Assembly: GCA_017936385.1 (NCBI GenBank)
Contig: JAGBFQ010000013.1
Location: 1 to 64,000 of the forward strand
DNA from: Rikenellaceae bacterium
Lineage (GTDB): Bacteria; Bacteroidota; Bacteroidia; Bacteroidales; Rikenellaceae
Length of the DNA stretch: 64,000 nt
Reading direction: 5' to 3'
Part shown: positions 57,430 to 63,360 of the stretch, in pieces
How positions within the stretch are numbered: the stretch's first letter is position 1
Layout: every line of letters starts with the position of its first letter
Translations under genes and position numbers: made by a program
The notes under the pieces: generated by a model
What the model was told of the DNA's origin: nothing
Database searches by the model: none
The model's input: only the letters and a program-made list of their open reading frames with translations

Positions 57430-57706
57430 ATGACTACTTGAAGATATTGGCTTTCATCGAGTGGTTAAAGGTCGCATATCCCGAAAAAGCAGCGCTCCTC
57501 ACAAAAAAATCTATTAATATATCATATGTATACAACATTTATCATACTCTATTGATTGCACACCAATGTACAGTAGATTGGTGCTTTTAGAACTTTGCGA
57601 TTTGCTACTCAAAAATCTCAACATTAACAGCACCCACAAACAACTAATTGCTATTCAATTATTTCATCCTATCTAAGCTAAGTTACACCTTTGATATAAT
57701 AACCCA

Positions 57707-57737
57707 AACGGAGCTATCCACGCGGGACAGCTCCGTT
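57707..57737. terminator. Terminator at the end of the fimbrillin operon
   Basis: AACGGAGCT (57707-57715) pairs with AGCTCCGTT (57729-57737). A run of six T lies on the plus strand and a weaker TTTGGGTTATT on the minus strand. It sits 27 bp beyond the stop of the leftward fimbrillin gene and can close both sides. Confidence 0.7.
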
Positions 57738-57764
57738 TTTTGATTGATGGAAGTTGTGGCGAGG

Positions 57765-58655
57765 TTATTGCCAGTCGCCGACATCGCCGTCGATAGAAAT
57801 TTCAATTTTTTCTTGGTCGGGCGAGGTGTTGAGTGTTACAGAAACCGTATATTGATATCCTGGTTGGAACGACATACTGTAATCAAGCAGATATGCAATA
57901 CCCTCCATCGTGATTTCAATAAGCGGTGTTTTGCGTTCAATATTTTGAGGAACAATAATCGCATCGAACGTATCATTACTGAGTTTTCTCATCGAGATAG
58001 TTTTGCTACCGTATGAGGGGTCTTTCTCGAGTGTGCCGTTTTTGAGACTAACCATAGCTGTTGTTGCGGTGTTGTAAACGTGAACTGTCACATCTTCGGG
58101 CAACTCACCTTCGAACTCGGGACCTCTGACGATGTTCACAATAAGTCTCGACATCATATGGTTGAATGCGAGTTTTACGGTACCATCACTTTTCGCCACC
58201 TTTGTCGATTTGGCCCACATCAAATCAGAAGCCTCATAACCGCTGAGGGTTTCAGCAGTTTCTGCACTATCTTGGTCGGTGCGGATAGTGAACGGGAACT
58301 CCTCTACCGAGTTTGGCTCGATAGCGGGATATACGGCATAGAAATCGCACGGGTTCTGACTCCAATAAAGAGTACGTTGCGGGTCCCAACCAGCACCATC
58401 GTATGTGATTAGTTCGTTATTGATGTAGTTTCCACTGATTTGTAGCGGTGCAACCTCATCGCCATTGTATTCTACTGCCCAGAGCGAGAATTTGTCACCA
58501 TTTTCAAATTGCGATAATGTAGCTCTAGTGGCTGGTAATTTTGCGTCAAGGACAATGACATTGCTATCCTTCTCGAGGATTTCATTAGATTGGTCTTGAC
58601 AAGCATTTGCGAGTAGTGCAAATGCAGCTATTGCTATTAATTTATATGTTTTCAT
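57765..58655 (-). CDS. Fimbrillin-family lipoprotein
   Basis: A 296-aa lipoprotein (signal peptide ending ANAC, C19) of the Mfa-like/fimbrillin family, surface proteins that polymerise into type V pili or act as tip/anchor subunits. Family features are GDKFSLWAVEYNG, YWSQNPCDFYAVYP (the YW(P)...FFAYYP motif), DLMWAKSTKV and the paired FNHMMSRLIVNIV strand, with a C-terminal domain ending IDGDVGDWQ. It is the last gene in the four-gene operon, 13 bp after the M64 fusion gene. Specific role (stalk or tip) cannot be told. Confidence 0.85.
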   Translation of the reverse strand: MKTYKLIAIAAFALLANACQDQSNEILEKDSNVIVLDAKLPATRATLSQFENGDKFSLWAVEYNGDEVAPLQISGNYINNELITYDGAGWDPQRTLYWSQNPCDFYAVYPAIEPNSVEEFPFTIRTDQDSAETAETLSGYEASDLMWAKSTKVAKSDGTVKLAFNHMMSRLIVNIVRGPEFEGELPEDVTVHVYNTATTAMVSLKNGTLEKDPSYGSKTISMRKLSNDTFDAIIVPQNIERKTPLIEITMEGIAYLLDYSMSFQPGYQYTVSVTLNTSPDQEKIEISIDGDVGDWQ

Positions 58656-58668
58656 AATATTTCGGTTA

Positions 58669-61600
58669 TTAGAAGTTTAACTCTGGAGCTACGCCCATTA
58701 CTACGGGTTCGTAATGTTCTACTGCTTTTTCTACAAAGTTTGAGCGAGTTGCTGCGCCACCTGTGAGAGAGCCGTTTACATCACGCACGTCCTTTTGATA
58801 GAATTGCTCTTGGTCGAATACACCGCCACCGCACTCCATAATGCGTTTTACGATAGTTTCGCGTGAGATAGCCGAGAAATAAGGAATGTATGTACCCATA
58901 CAGCTTACGTCCTCACTACGATAAATGCCGTGCGAGTAGCCATATCCACCTTCGAAGATGTCAACTTGGTCTTTGTATTTGGGATGTACCATAAAGTGTT
59001 TCCAAGCGACCTCCGACATATTACCCGAGAGTGCAATATTCTTGTTCCAGCCAAGTTTTTCGTGGTCTTTGAAATTCTGTTTGTGTTTTTTGTTTTTGGA
59101 CGAATTGGAGTTAATATTTGCCGATTGCGAGATATTCTCATCTCCAAGTTTCGCAAAAGCGTGTCCACAAGCCTCGTGTTGAATTGTACCTCGGAAATCG
59201 TAGGGATAATCACCGTTGCGAGTGGGGCAAATTGCGATGTTCGAACCATCTTCCCACATATAGGTAATACCCTCGTATTCGTCGCTATTGACAACGATTA
59301 CGATAAGCGATTTTTTGATATCCTCTTTGGAGATACCTGCTTTTTGAGCATACTTAAACACCACTTGTTCTTTGATTTTCAGACCCTTTCCTGGAATGTA
59401 TTGAATTCCGAAAGTTGTAGTTTTGTGATTGTGTTCGCTGCTCACGCCTGCTTGTTTCGAGATAGCTACCACGGTATAAACATCAAACCAACCTTTGTAA
59501 GTTTTGAACGGTTCTACATCAAACATATGTCCGATAGCGGTGTTGATGTCGTTGGTGTATTTGCCATTGTCGACATCGCTTGCGTCATATCCTTCGCCAA
59601 GGAATACCACTTTGACACCATTACCTTCGGTGTGTTCGTAATTAGTGATTACATCACCATCTGCCACAACCTCGCCTTGTGCATCAACAATGTCGTATTG
59701 CTCTGCGGTGATTGAGGCCAATGCGGTCTCTTCGTTATCGAGTTTGAAGGTCACTACACCGGTTCTGTCGCCACTGCCTGCTGCGAGCTCTTTAAGTGTC
59801 AAGGTAAGAGTTGTCGCGCCTGTTCCGGAGGTCGGAGTTACCTCAACCCAATCCGGAGAGCTCACCATCGTCCACGCATCATTATCGAATGCCGAGAGTT
59901 GAATTGTGTGCTCGGTCGAAGCATTCTCGCTACGCACCATATTGTTATCAACATTGAATGCGTAGTACGGTTGAATGTTCTTGAAGTTTTTCCAACCCGT
60001 TGCAACTTGATACTTCACAATCGACTGTGCCGGGACATAAAGAGTGGCGTTCTCATAAGCTTCAGATGCAAATACGGCATAACCTGTATTTTCCACAAGG
60101 GTCGGAGGAATTATAGCCTCGCATATTACGGTTTTCAGGTTTGGTGAATTGTAGAACGCAAGTTCTTCAATTACTTCCAAATCAGTAGGCAGATGAAGAT
60201 ATTCGAGACTTTTTTGATATTGGAAAGCAGAATTGCCGATAGACCTCAACGATGCAGGTAAAATCAATTTAGTTAAAGGATTTGGTTCTGCATTCCATCC
60301 GCTTGTTCCTTCAAAACCACATTGGTCTATACGTACGATATCATCATGAAGTATAATATTATTAAATCTATTTCTAAAAAACGCTTCTTTATTTATGCGA
60401 GTGATTTGATTAGGGATAACTAATTCACCGGTGAAAGGGATGCCATAAAAAGCACTCCTACCGATTTCTTTTAGGCTATTAGGCAGTTCCAATGAGCCAT
60501 TGAATTTGCAATCGCGAAATGCATATTCACCTATTTTGGTAACACCTTCGTGTAGAACCAATTTGCCTGTAAGTCCTTTGCAACCATAAAAACAATGGTC
60601 TGGTATCTCGGTCAACTTTTCGGGCAATACAAGGGAGTTGGCAGTAAGTCCCACACAACCATAAAAGCAGCCGCTTCCTATGCTCTCCAAACCTTCGGGG
60701 AGCATCAATTGTCCGGTAAGCAGGTTACAATCATGGAATACATCCTGTCCTAAAGATTTCAGACCCGTGGGCAATTGAAGAGATGTTATTGAAGTGGCAT
60801 AAAAAGCATGATTCTCAACACATTCAACATCACTGGGGATAATCAAGGCTCCCAACAGCATTGTTTTATAAAAAGCATATGCTCCAATCTTTACGACCTT
60901 CTCGGGGAACACAAAATTAACAAGTGTTTCTTTATCTCTGAACGCACAGGCCGGTATTGCATCTTCTATATTACCATAGGTGTAACCGCTACCATAATAA
61001 TTCTCTGAGAAAATTTCATCATTGTCTTTGTCGCCAATATAGTTAGAGTATCCACTACGATAGCGGCTGGCTTTAGTGCTGGCTATGATTTTACACTCCT
61101 TAAGGTTGACTGATTGAAGAATCTCCATAGAGTCACGCATATAGAAAAATTCACAACCGTCGATAATACCCGAAATCTTCAAGTTCTTGATTTTGTCGGG
61201 ATTCTTCTTGTCGGCACGAATCTTTGCACCAAGAGTACCTGCCTGCTCAAGGTGAACACAATAGTATTGACGAGCCTCGCCCCCGTGGGTGTCGAGGTCG
61301 GCAATCCAAGGCACAATCTCGCAATCCTCAAGCGACAACTCATAATCGCCCGACGGACTCTTCTTGTTAATCTCGATAGTGAATTTGGCTTGACTGCCCG
61401 ACTCATAAGCAAAAGCATTGAGGTTATCATCGTCATCTTTATATTTGAAGCGATACACTACACCATCTATGGTAATCGAGAAGAGAGCTGCACCCGACTC
61501 AACAATTTGCGGAACAACAATCGCACGATACCCCTCGGCATTATGTTTCATCACGATACCTTCGCCCGTGAACGTGCCTGTTGCCGAAACCTCGCCCGTT

Positions 61601-62256
61601 GCAAGGTCGATGGTTGCAGTTCGTGTTGTGTTCATTGCTAAAACACTCTTGTCAAGTGCGTCAAACTCACCGTCACCAAAGCCTTCGCCCTCAACAAGCA
61701 CCACATTTGCACAAGCCATACGGTGGTCAAACTTGATGCGAACTTTCGCTTCACTCGGGGTTACATTCTCTACTTTACCCCACAAGAAGTCCGACAGAGC
61801 ATAGCCATCCATAGAGTTTGCACCCGATTGGTCTTGTTGTACCTCAAACGGGTATTCACTTACGCTATTCACCGCGGCATAAGGATAGTAGGCGTAGAGG
61901 TCGATATTGGTTTTTGCGTCTTTGTAGAACACGCCACCAGGCGACACCCATTTATTTTGACTCTCGTCGTAGGTGTAGCGGGCGTTGTCAACTTGGTTGC
62001 CCTCGTCAACAAGTGTTCCCTTAACCGTATTTTTGTCGGTATAGTTCACACCAAATAGACCTACCTGGTCGTCTTGGCAGAATCCACCGTCATCGACACG
62101 GGTAGTATACTGTTGATTGATTGCGCCATCGATTTGAATGGCCAATACCCTACTATCATTCGGCATTTGAGAGCCGCCAAGTTCGTTAGGGTCTTTTGTG
62201 CAACTCGACAGCACCATTGCCGAAAGAGCCGCGAAAAGGTAAAATTTACGTTTCAT
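58669..62256 (-). CDS. Fimbrillin / LRR_5 / BACON / M64-peptidase fusion lipoprotein
   Basis: A 1,195-aa lipoprotein (VLSSC, C19) with four different modules. Residues about 30-330 are fimbrillin-like (VGLFGVNYTD, DLYAYYPYAAV, SDFLWGKVENV, KFDHRMACANVVL). About 430-770 hold BspA-like LRR_5 repeats (IGAYAFYKTML, IGSGCFYGCVGL, IPDHCFYGCKGL, IGRSAFYGIP). About 795-885 form a BACON-like domain (SSPDWVEVTP). From about 890 to the end is an M64-type peptidase with GTIQHEACGHAFAKLGDEN, HE at 1027-1028, His at 1032 and LGDE after. M64 includes an IgA protease of Clostridium ramosum. The HE-x3-H spacing is one residue longer than HExxH, as I recall for Bacteroidetes members. Substrate unknown. Confidence 0.9.
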   Translation of the reverse strand: MKRKFYLFAALSAMVLSSCTKDPNELGGSQMPNDSRVLAIQIDGAINQQYTTRVDDGGFCQDDQVGLFGVNYTDKNTVKGTLVDEGNQVDNARYTYDESQNKWVSPGGVFYKDAKTNIDLYAYYPYAAVNSVSEYPFEVQQDQSGANSMDGYALSDFLWGKVENVTPSEAKVRIKFDHRMACANVVLVEGEGFGDGEFDALDKSVLAMNTTRTATIDLATGEVSATGTFTGEGIVMKHNAEGYRAIVVPQIVESGAALFSITIDGVVYRFKYKDDDDNLNAFAYESGSQAKFTIEINKKSPSGDYELSLEDCEIVPWIADLDTHGGEARQYYCVHLEQAGTLGAKIRADKKNPDKIKNLKISGIIDGCEFFYMRDSMEILQSVNLKECKIIASTKASRYRSGYSNYIGDKDNDEIFSENYYGSGYTYGNIEDAIPACAFRDKETLVNFVFPEKVVKIGAYAFYKTMLLGALIIPSDVECVENHAFYATSITSLQLPTGLKSLGQDVFHDCNLLTGQLMLPEGLESIGSGCFYGCVGLTANSLVLPEKLTEIPDHCFYGCKGLTGKLVLHEGVTKIGEYAFRDCKFNGSLELPNSLKEIGRSAFYGIPFTGELVIPNQITRINKEAFFRNRFNNIILHDDIVRIDQCGFEGTSGWNAEPNPLTKLILPASLRSIGNSAFQYQKSLEYLHLPTDLEVIEELAFYNSPNLKTVICEAIIPPTLVENTGYAVFASEAYENATLYVPAQSIVKYQVATGWKNFKNIQPYYAFNVDNNMVRSENASTEHTIQLSAFDNDAWTMVSSPDWVEVTPTSGTGATTLTLTLKELAAGSGDRTGVVTFKLDNEETALASITAEQYDIVDAQGEVVADGDVITNYEHTEGNGVKVVFLGEGYDASDVDNGKYTNDINTAIGHMFDVEPFKTYKGWFDVYTVVAISKQAGVSSEHNHKTTTFGIQYIPGKGLKIKEQVVFKYAQKAGISKEDIKKSLIVIVVNSDEYEGITYMWEDGSNIAICPTRNGDYPYDFRGTIQHEACGHAFAKLGDENISQSANINSNSSKNKKHKQNFKDHEKLGWNKNIALSGNMSEVAWKHFMVHPKYKDQVDIFEGGYGYSHGIYRSEDVSCMGTYIPYFSAISRETIVKRIMECGGGVFDQEQFYQKDVRDVNGSLTGGAATRSNFVEKAVEHYEPVVMGVAPELNF

Positions 62257-62279: not shown

Positions 62280-63230
62280 TTATTCTGCTGCGCCACTATG
62301 TTCGACACCATTATTATTCCAACCATTAACACCCATAGCCGTTGAGGCATCAGTGATACTCAACTCACGGATAAGGCGTTTATACTTGTTGCGCTCAAAT
62401 GTTAGGCTCTTATCAACAGTGAACGTCTGCTCGCCACCATAGTATCCCGAAACCTTAACGGAAATACCTTGTGAATAGGTGGCAGGGGGGATAACAATCC
62501 AAAAATCGGTAGCCGTTTGCTCTGTCGTTCCAATCTGGACAGATTCAACACAATTGAGAGTAACAGAAGAAGTAGCGCCTGTCATCTCAAGGGTAGGATA
62601 ACCGCCATACACAGGCGTAATCTTGCAAGTTCCCGCGACAGGCTCTCCTGCATTGGTTGTGAGTGTCACAGAACCAACAGTCTGCTCGACGCCCCATAGG
62701 CGAACCAACAAAAAGCTACACGCATTACGGAACAACAAATCAAAATCTTCCAAATCAGCAGTAACAGCAACCATCACATTCGCGCCTCGACCGACCGAAC
62801 TTTCGGCATAAGTTTGAGTCGCAGGGAGTGTGAACTGAATGTAATCCGCGACATTATCATATTTATATTTGGTCGTGGATGCATAGGGATAAAGTGCATA
62901 ATATCGGTCGAGGTCGTTACCCGTACCGAAACCAGCCTTTACAAACTCAAAATCGCCGGCATTGTCACCATCCTCGCCCATAAACTTATATTGTTTATTG
63001 CGAGTTGTTCCTTCGAATAGCGTAATTCGGTCGTCTGCATTCCAATGCAGGCGAACTTTCTCGTCGAGGAAAACACGACTGCCGTCCTCTTCAGCAATAA
63101 TTCCACGGAACACAAGCTCCGAAGGTGTGTCCGGAACCTCGGGTGAAGGTGTGGGTGTGGACAGTTGGTCATCACCTCCCGCTTGACACGACACCATTAG
63201 CACCGCAAGGGCAAAAATAAAACTCTTCAT
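62280..63230 (-). CDS. Fimbrillin-family lipoprotein
   Basis: A 316-aa lipoprotein; the ATG at 63228-63230 starts the signal peptide MKSFIFALAVLMVSC (C15). The longer frame with 19 additional codons overlaps the 39-aa gene and is unlikely. A Pro/Thr-rich linker (TPTPSPEVPDTPSE) precedes the fimbrillin-like domain: DRITLFEGTTRNK, YYALYPYAST, ANVMVAVTADLEDFDLLFRNACSFLLVRL, and a closing segment FERNKYKRLIREL. These match the Mfa-like N- and C-terminal domains. The placement before the M64 fusion gene and after the small protein suggests a joint surface assembly. Confidence 0.82.
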   Translation of the reverse strand: MKSFIFALAVLMVSCQAGGDDQLSTPTPSPEVPDTPSELVFRGIIAEEDGSRVFLDEKVRLHWNADDRITLFEGTTRNKQYKFMGEDGDNAGDFEFVKAGFGTGNDLDRYYALYPYASTTKYKYDNVADYIQFTLPATQTYAESSVGRGANVMVAVTADLEDFDLLFRNACSFLLVRLWGVEQTVGSVTLTTNAGEPVAGTCKITPVYGGYPTLEMTGATSSVTLNCVESVQIGTTEQTATDFWIVIPPATYSQGISVKVSGYYGGEQTFTVDKSLTFERNKYKRLIRELSITDASTAMGVNGWNNNGVEHSGAAE

Positions 63231-63240
63231 AGCCATTGAA

Positions 63241-63360
63241 TTAAATATCCCCATCAAACTCTGGATTCTCGAGAGTCGAGCCCTCAAAACCTCGCTCTAC
63301 TTGGATTTGTGTTATCTCGATTTCTGGCACGAGATAAATAGCCTTGTTGTCTTTTTTCAT
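63241..63360 (-). CDS. 39-aa small protein at the head of the fimbrillin operon
   Basis: ATG at 63358-63360, stop TAA at 63241. The product begins MKKDNKAIYLVPEIEITQIQ and ends FEGSTLENPEFDGDI. The pattern MKK...YxxPEIEIxxI followed by a Gly/Ser/Asp/Glu-rich tail matches a class of very small proteins common in Bacteroidetes, often encoded beside surface-protein genes and with no known function. The stop is 10 nt before the fimbrillin ATG, so they are translationally linked. Confidence 0.7.
   Translation of the reverse strand: MKKDNKAIYLVPEIEITQIQVERGFEGSTLENPEFDGDI

Follow-up and report, generated by a model that had tools for sequence, protein, structure and literature searches.

A pilin-LRR-protease fusion in a conserved three-gene set of gut Bacteroidales

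A conserved set of three genes that includes a pilin-LRR-protease fusion, apparently undescribed, is present in many gut Bacteroidales. In the window, by which we mean the whole 64,000-nucleotide stretch of Rikenellaceae DNA analysed, the fusion is encoded at 58669..62256 (-) in a single uninterrupted frame of 1195 aa. We tentatively consider it a type V pilin-like surface lipoprotein to whose C-terminus a binding region of LRRs and BACON and a zinc peptidase have been added; it would be trimmed at Arg53 and act as a tip-like subunit, a reading that comes close to an even chance in our estimation without reaching it.

Domains, fold and distribution of the fusion

The initial annotation had described one polypeptide with a pilin-type domain, about 12 LRR_5 repeats, a BACON domain and an M64 peptidase, and this description was upheld by the intact ORF, Pfam, the alignment and an AlphaFold model with its structure matches. 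The lipoprotein begins with a signal peptide and lipobox, read from the sequence (lipobox Cys19), followed by a fimbrillin fold (residues 33-318, with Arg53 and Trp317 inside), an LRR cap with about 12 BspA-type LRRs, counted by eye (residues 332-765), a BACON domain (residues ~770-860) and an M64-type peptidase (residues 865-1157) containing H1027, E1028, H1032 and D1039. The Pfam search gave matches above the curated cut-offs for Mfa_like_1 (52-317, 8e-52), LRR_5 (starting at 434, 6e-55), BACON (798-853, 4e-6) and Peptidase_M64 (880-1063, 3e-14; 53.5 bits vs a cut-off of 26). No match to PF16217 (M64_N) was found in the fusion by this search, and the BACON domain occupies that place.

The AlphaFold model, computed with 41 aligned homologues as input, had a mean pLDDT of 80 but a pTM of 0.45, so that the individual predicted domains are reliable and their relative placement is left open. 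As the pilin-type assignment had proposed, residues 33-318 of the model do fold as a fimbrillin, matching 4k4k (Z 20.1), FimA 4q98 (Z 12.0) and Mfa3 (Z 11.9). Residues 332-765 match BspA-type LRR proteins (4fs7, Z 29.3), so that both the LRR_5 repeats and their fold are present, and share with these surface proteins the LRR solenoid and its cap; unlike in them, the LRRs are flanked by a pilin fold and a peptidase. The BACON part matches the BACON-bearing xyloglucanase 3zmr (Z 12.8 over 88 residues), and residues 865-1146 match the M64 peptidases BF3526 (Z 21.1) and the IgA protease of T. ramosa (Z ~19).

An assembly join or a frameshift between separate genes is excluded, since the identical domain order recurs in dozens of genomes: it was found in 41 full-length relatives and, when genome_contigs was scanned with an alignment of 21 rows, which gave at least 518 relatives, the complete fimbrillin-LRR-BACON-M64 order was present in 70 of the best 80 loci. 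Altogether, 91 distinct homologues with this order were collected from several Bacteroidales families, including the cultured species Mediterranea massiliensis, Butyricimonas synergistica, Bacteroides ndongoniae, Phocaeicola coprophilus, Phocaeicola faecicola and Marseilla massiliensis. Full-length relatives at 47-51% identity are numerous in genomes of the same GTDB family; within the genus of the window the fusion is present in this genome only (1/11 genomes), and its distribution is therefore patchy. A scan of genome_contigs with the C-terminus of the window copy alone as query found no relative, the strong divergence of this copy being the probable reason, and among the matches listed from the plasmid collection, which were LRR matches, there was no full-length relative. 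The architecture had been noted as lacking a described precedent, and our literature search for the pilin-LRR-BACON-M64 combination likewise found no paper describing it.

The cassette, its fimbrillins and a small upstream peptide

The fusion gene had been placed between two fimbrillin genes, which holds for the downstream neighbor by Pfam and for the upstream one by predicted fold. The downstream gene (57765..58655 (-)) encodes a fimbrillin lipoprotein of 296 aa that ends one residue past its Trp, without a tail, and is followed on its 3' side by a terminator-like stem-loop of 14 pairs (57706..57738 (-)). The upstream gene (62280..63230 (-)) encodes a lipoprotein of 316 aa that matched no family in the Pfam search; its predicted fold is that of a fimbrillin (3t2l, Z 14.1), and after Trp304 it carries the C-terminal tail GWNNNGVEHSGAAE. 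The gaps between the genes are 23 bp and 13 bp, which suggests that the three are carried on one transcript, and all three proteins have lipoboxes. Contig C8 of this genome carries a second full cassette, with canonical active-site residues (L004 3303-8868).

The arrangement is conserved, with a fimbrillin immediately downstream in 86/91 distinct fusions and immediately upstream in 51/91, some of the fusions that lack a fimbrillin neighbor being at contig ends; the median gap is 31 bp on the upstream side and 16 bp on the downstream side. In a quick tree built from 28 complete cassettes, supported by SH-aLRT only, the fusion slot and the downstream slot each formed one clade, while the upstream slot held more than one fimbrillin type and the upstream protein of the window stood on a long branch. 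Even across these differing types, a C-terminal tail past the invariant Trp, unstructured in the predicted model, was present in 28/28 upstream proteins; downstream proteins mostly terminate one or two residues past their Trp.

Several variants of the cassette slots were observed. At five loci (L091, L092, L093, L099 and L181) the downstream fimbrillins are ~640-650 aa long, and their extra C-terminal half, to which no family is assigned, ends in or near SVRC.(K/R)E. Very long upstream-slot proteins with collagen-like stretches and the same conserved tail occur at L072 (8108-11635 (-)), where the protein additionally has DUF4988 and BACON, and at L069 (9880-12060 (-)). Past the end of the window, contig C31 (L003 2747-4309) encodes on the opposite strand a fimbrillin-LRR protein of 520 aa adjoining the cassette.

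A small ORF for a signal-less peptide of 39 aa (63241..63360 (-)) ends 10 bp before the start of the upstream fimbrillin gene. Similar peptides, with the pattern YxxPExxxxxxxVExGFxxS, are encoded ahead of fimbrillin-type genes in several places in the genome and in many cassettes, and in three of the closest peptide pairs the differences are mostly at third codon positions. In cassettes that lack the upstream fimbrillin the peptide often carries the same terminal tail, such as IGGWEDGGEYGGDAE. Pfam and NCBIfam matched no family to the four peptides searched, and a literature search for such small peptides found nothing. Signal-less peptides of 35-55 aa just 5' of fimbrillin-type genes were also seen as a family beyond the window ORF, at L003 2590, L191, L198 and L204 4396, and several of them have the C-terminal tail of the cassettes' upstream fimbrillins.

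Pilin features and the proposed place of the fusion

In P. gingivalis, the type V pilins Mfa1, Mfa3 and Mfa4 have an Arg that is cut by Rgp in the loop past the first strand, the anchor Mfa2 is devoid of it, and a conserved Trp stands ahead of the last C-terminal residues (PMC5789003). The fusions share with the type V (FimA/Mfa1) fimbrillins of Porphyromonas and Bacteroides the fold, the lipobox, the Arg of the first loop and the conserved Trp near the C-terminal end of the domain: the lipobox Cys19 and Arg53 were found in 41/41 aligned fusions, Trp317 is invariant among them, and some distant members have Lys at the trimming position. Arg53 lies within a low-confidence loop following the first strand of the model. 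This conservation of the lipobox Cys and of a putative trimming-site Arg supports a surface protease that would be either type V pilus-related (tip-like) or anchored.

Unlike the FimA/Mfa1 fimbrillins, the fusion, known here from genes and models, adds ~870 residues of LRR, BACON and peptidase past the Trp. It thus lacks the free C-terminal tail that acts as donor strand in shaft subunits, and as the chain runs into LRRs we do not class it as a shaft pilin; because the fused domains stand where shaft pilins have the tail to donate, we infer a tip-like place. A close parallel in P. gingivalis is Mfa5, a vWA tip protein (PMC7835359), which is also large and multidomain and equips a type V fimbrial system with a further functional domain; Mfa5, however, is devoid of the classical type V fold, is type IX-exported and has no peptidase, whereas the fusion is a lipoprotein with a fimbrillin fold.

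The proposed sequence of events is as follows. After export as a lipoprotein, the fusion would be cut behind Arg53 by a protease specific for Arg, and its fimbrillin domain would join the partner fimbrillins with the fusion as tip-like subunit. A protein or glycoprotein bound by the LRRs as ligand would then be trimmed by the peptidase. A search for peptidase C25 found none in the genome, the control genomes being equally silent; the genome has 15 Mfa_like_1 matches and one clostripain-type (C11) peptidase, and we can only guess that the latter may be the trimming protease.

No shaft- or anchor-type gene was recognized within the cassette, all three of its proteins have lipoboxes, and several further long proteins of this genome have a fimbrillin domain at the N-terminus, as if it were a generic module. 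These observations fit a protease anchored at the surface, in which the fimbrillin fold is a lipid-anchored pedestal or docking domain of a three-lipoprotein complex and no fiber is formed. We consider this possible but doubtful: an Arg or Lys kept at the trimming position would be needless in a fixed anchor, as Mfa2 illustrates (PMC5789003), and the upstream proteins have kept their tails. The placement of the fusion as a tip-like subunit is favored by its fimbrillin fold, by the conserved Cys19, Arg53 and Trp317, by the recurrence of the cassette with its tailed upstream proteins, by the retained zinc ligands described below and by the single C11 peptidase of the genome; it is weakened by an extra residue in the zinc motif, by the divergence of the peptidase in the window copy, by the low pTM and by the missing assignment of an anchor or shaft gene.

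The peptidase: zinc motif, divergence and substrate

The zinc motif of the fusions is HEXXGH (HEACGH in the window), which has one residue more than HEXXH, the motif of canonical M64 peptidases. In the window the active-site stretch HEACGHAFAKLGDEN (59134..59178 (-), coordinates computed from residue numbers; residues 1027-1041) comprises this hexapeptide, D1039 and Asn1041. A motif scan found HEXXGH in all fusions caught and HEXXH in standalone M64 proteins, and the two types formed separate clades in a quick tree (support 100). Other modular surface M64 proteins (L100, L102, L103 and L104) also have HEXXGH; that of L100 (1554-5108 (-)), from a genome of the same genus, is a fusion of Big_2, a calcineurin-type phosphoesterase and M64.

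In a survey of the family, HEXXHXXXGXXD is retained by the M64 clusters whose catalytic residues are intact, and the catalytic residues of BF3526 are H311, E312, H315, D322 and Tyr324 (PMC12402451). As the fusions depart from this signature and retain the M64 fold and profile, we class their peptidase as M64-like and not as canonical M64. Equivalents of the BF3526 catalytic residues are retained in the fusion family, with the zinc ligands and general base in 40/41 aligned sequences and the Tyr after the Asp-Glu pair (Y324 of BF3526) in 37/41, the C8 paralogue included. Thus the fusion shares with the Bacteroides M64 proteins BF3526 and BACOVA_00663 the catalytic-domain fold (Z ~21), the zinc ligands and the general base, but differs from them in the hexapeptide, in M64_N not being found, in the different cysteines of the second metal site, in its fused surface modules and, for the window copy, in the loss of the active-site Tyr.

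The extra residue means that activity is not transferable from canonical M64. In M49, which includes dipeptidyl peptidase III, hexapeptide and pentapeptide forms coexist with the zinc site little changed (PMC5805324), so activity of the HEXXGH fusions is possible by analogy; the likeness is confined to the motif, and M49 is another family whose third zinc ligand is the Glu of a second motif. A hexapeptide zinc motif within the M64 fold parallels this split and raises the question of activity.

We compared the window copy with 16 close relatives domain by domain. The fimbrillin domain is as similar to the relatives as they are among themselves (65% vs 66% identity), whereas the LRRs (44% vs 55%), BACON (33% vs 60%) and M64 (45% vs 77%) have diverged. 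The window copy has 21/89 near-invariant M64 positions altered, Tyr1041, which holds the scissile carbonyl, replaced by Asn, and a Cys-rich loop lost, against 1/86 positions altered in the C8 paralogue. By these comparisons the C8 copy is the canonical one, and the window copy is a fast-evolving duplicate with probably altered or reduced catalysis. Its divergence is most simply read as a relaxed constraint or a new specificity that followed the duplication. Three tandem-array members in other genomes have 24 to 25 near-invariant positions altered, and in one of them two zinc ligands are affected. At L076 12134-15607 (-), the third copy in a tandem array, the M64 domain is devoid of two zinc ligands (His1032 to Ile and Asp1039 to Pro in window numbering).

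These changes would also suit a protease part turned into a pseudo-enzyme or a re-purposed domain, such as an adhesin or decoy, on a pilus or on an anchored protein alike. We regard this as well possible, if short of probable: H1027, E1028, H1032 and D1039 are kept and the ORF is open, and rapid change can also reflect a new specificity. Loss of the zinc site was rejected, all four residues being intact. That the window protease had been swapped in from another known lineage is unsupported, as identity was at most 48% among the matches listed and in the tree it stands by itself below the other fusions.

The initial annotation had envisaged a protease placed on or at the base of a pilus-like structure, close to host IgA or matrix proteins. 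Its first part is supported insofar as the peptidase-type domain shares a chain with a fimbrillin module that has the lipobox Cys, loop Arg and conserved Trp, in a conserved cassette; IgA as the target is unsupported. A pilus-displayed IgA protease would accord with the Pfam family name and with the fold likeness to the IgA protease of T. ramosa (ThomasA/IgAse), likewise an M64-fold multidomain surface enzyme. The latter is, however, more distant in sequence, with HEXXH and other accessory domains, and the fusion is nearer to BF3526, the closest characterized Bacteroidales M64, which trims pre-digested proteins at their N-termini and does not cleave intact IgA (PMC12402451). M64_N was not found by Pfam, and the complete cassette is present in a genome from a bioreactor inoculum (L118). 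We therefore consider an IgA protease highly improbable.

Elsewhere in the window, at about 7668-30919 (-), there is a tandem array of seven large ORFs, and the five of them that were scanned consist of BACON and Peptidase_M60, some with F5/8 type C domains. M60 enzymes are glycoprotein and mucin peptidases. Given this array, host or dietary glycoproteins are the more natural guess for the substrate of the fusion.

In its most elaborate form, which we consider unlikely, the proposal would be a pilus-borne peptidase system, in which a zinc peptidase of a new HEXXGH subfamily, guided by LRRs, is held on tips with two dedicated fimbrillins and is controlled or completed by the signal-less peptide that shares the tail of the upstream fimbrillin. 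For the fusion itself we infer trimming, assembly, tip position, ligand and activity from the features described, and its function would be directly testable in the cultured Mediterranea, Butyricimonas, Bacteroides, Phocaeicola and Marseilla that carry the cassette. Type V pili are widespread in gut Bacteroidales and the functions of their tips are little known; a peptidase built onto a pilin-type protein in a conserved cassette bears on this tip function.
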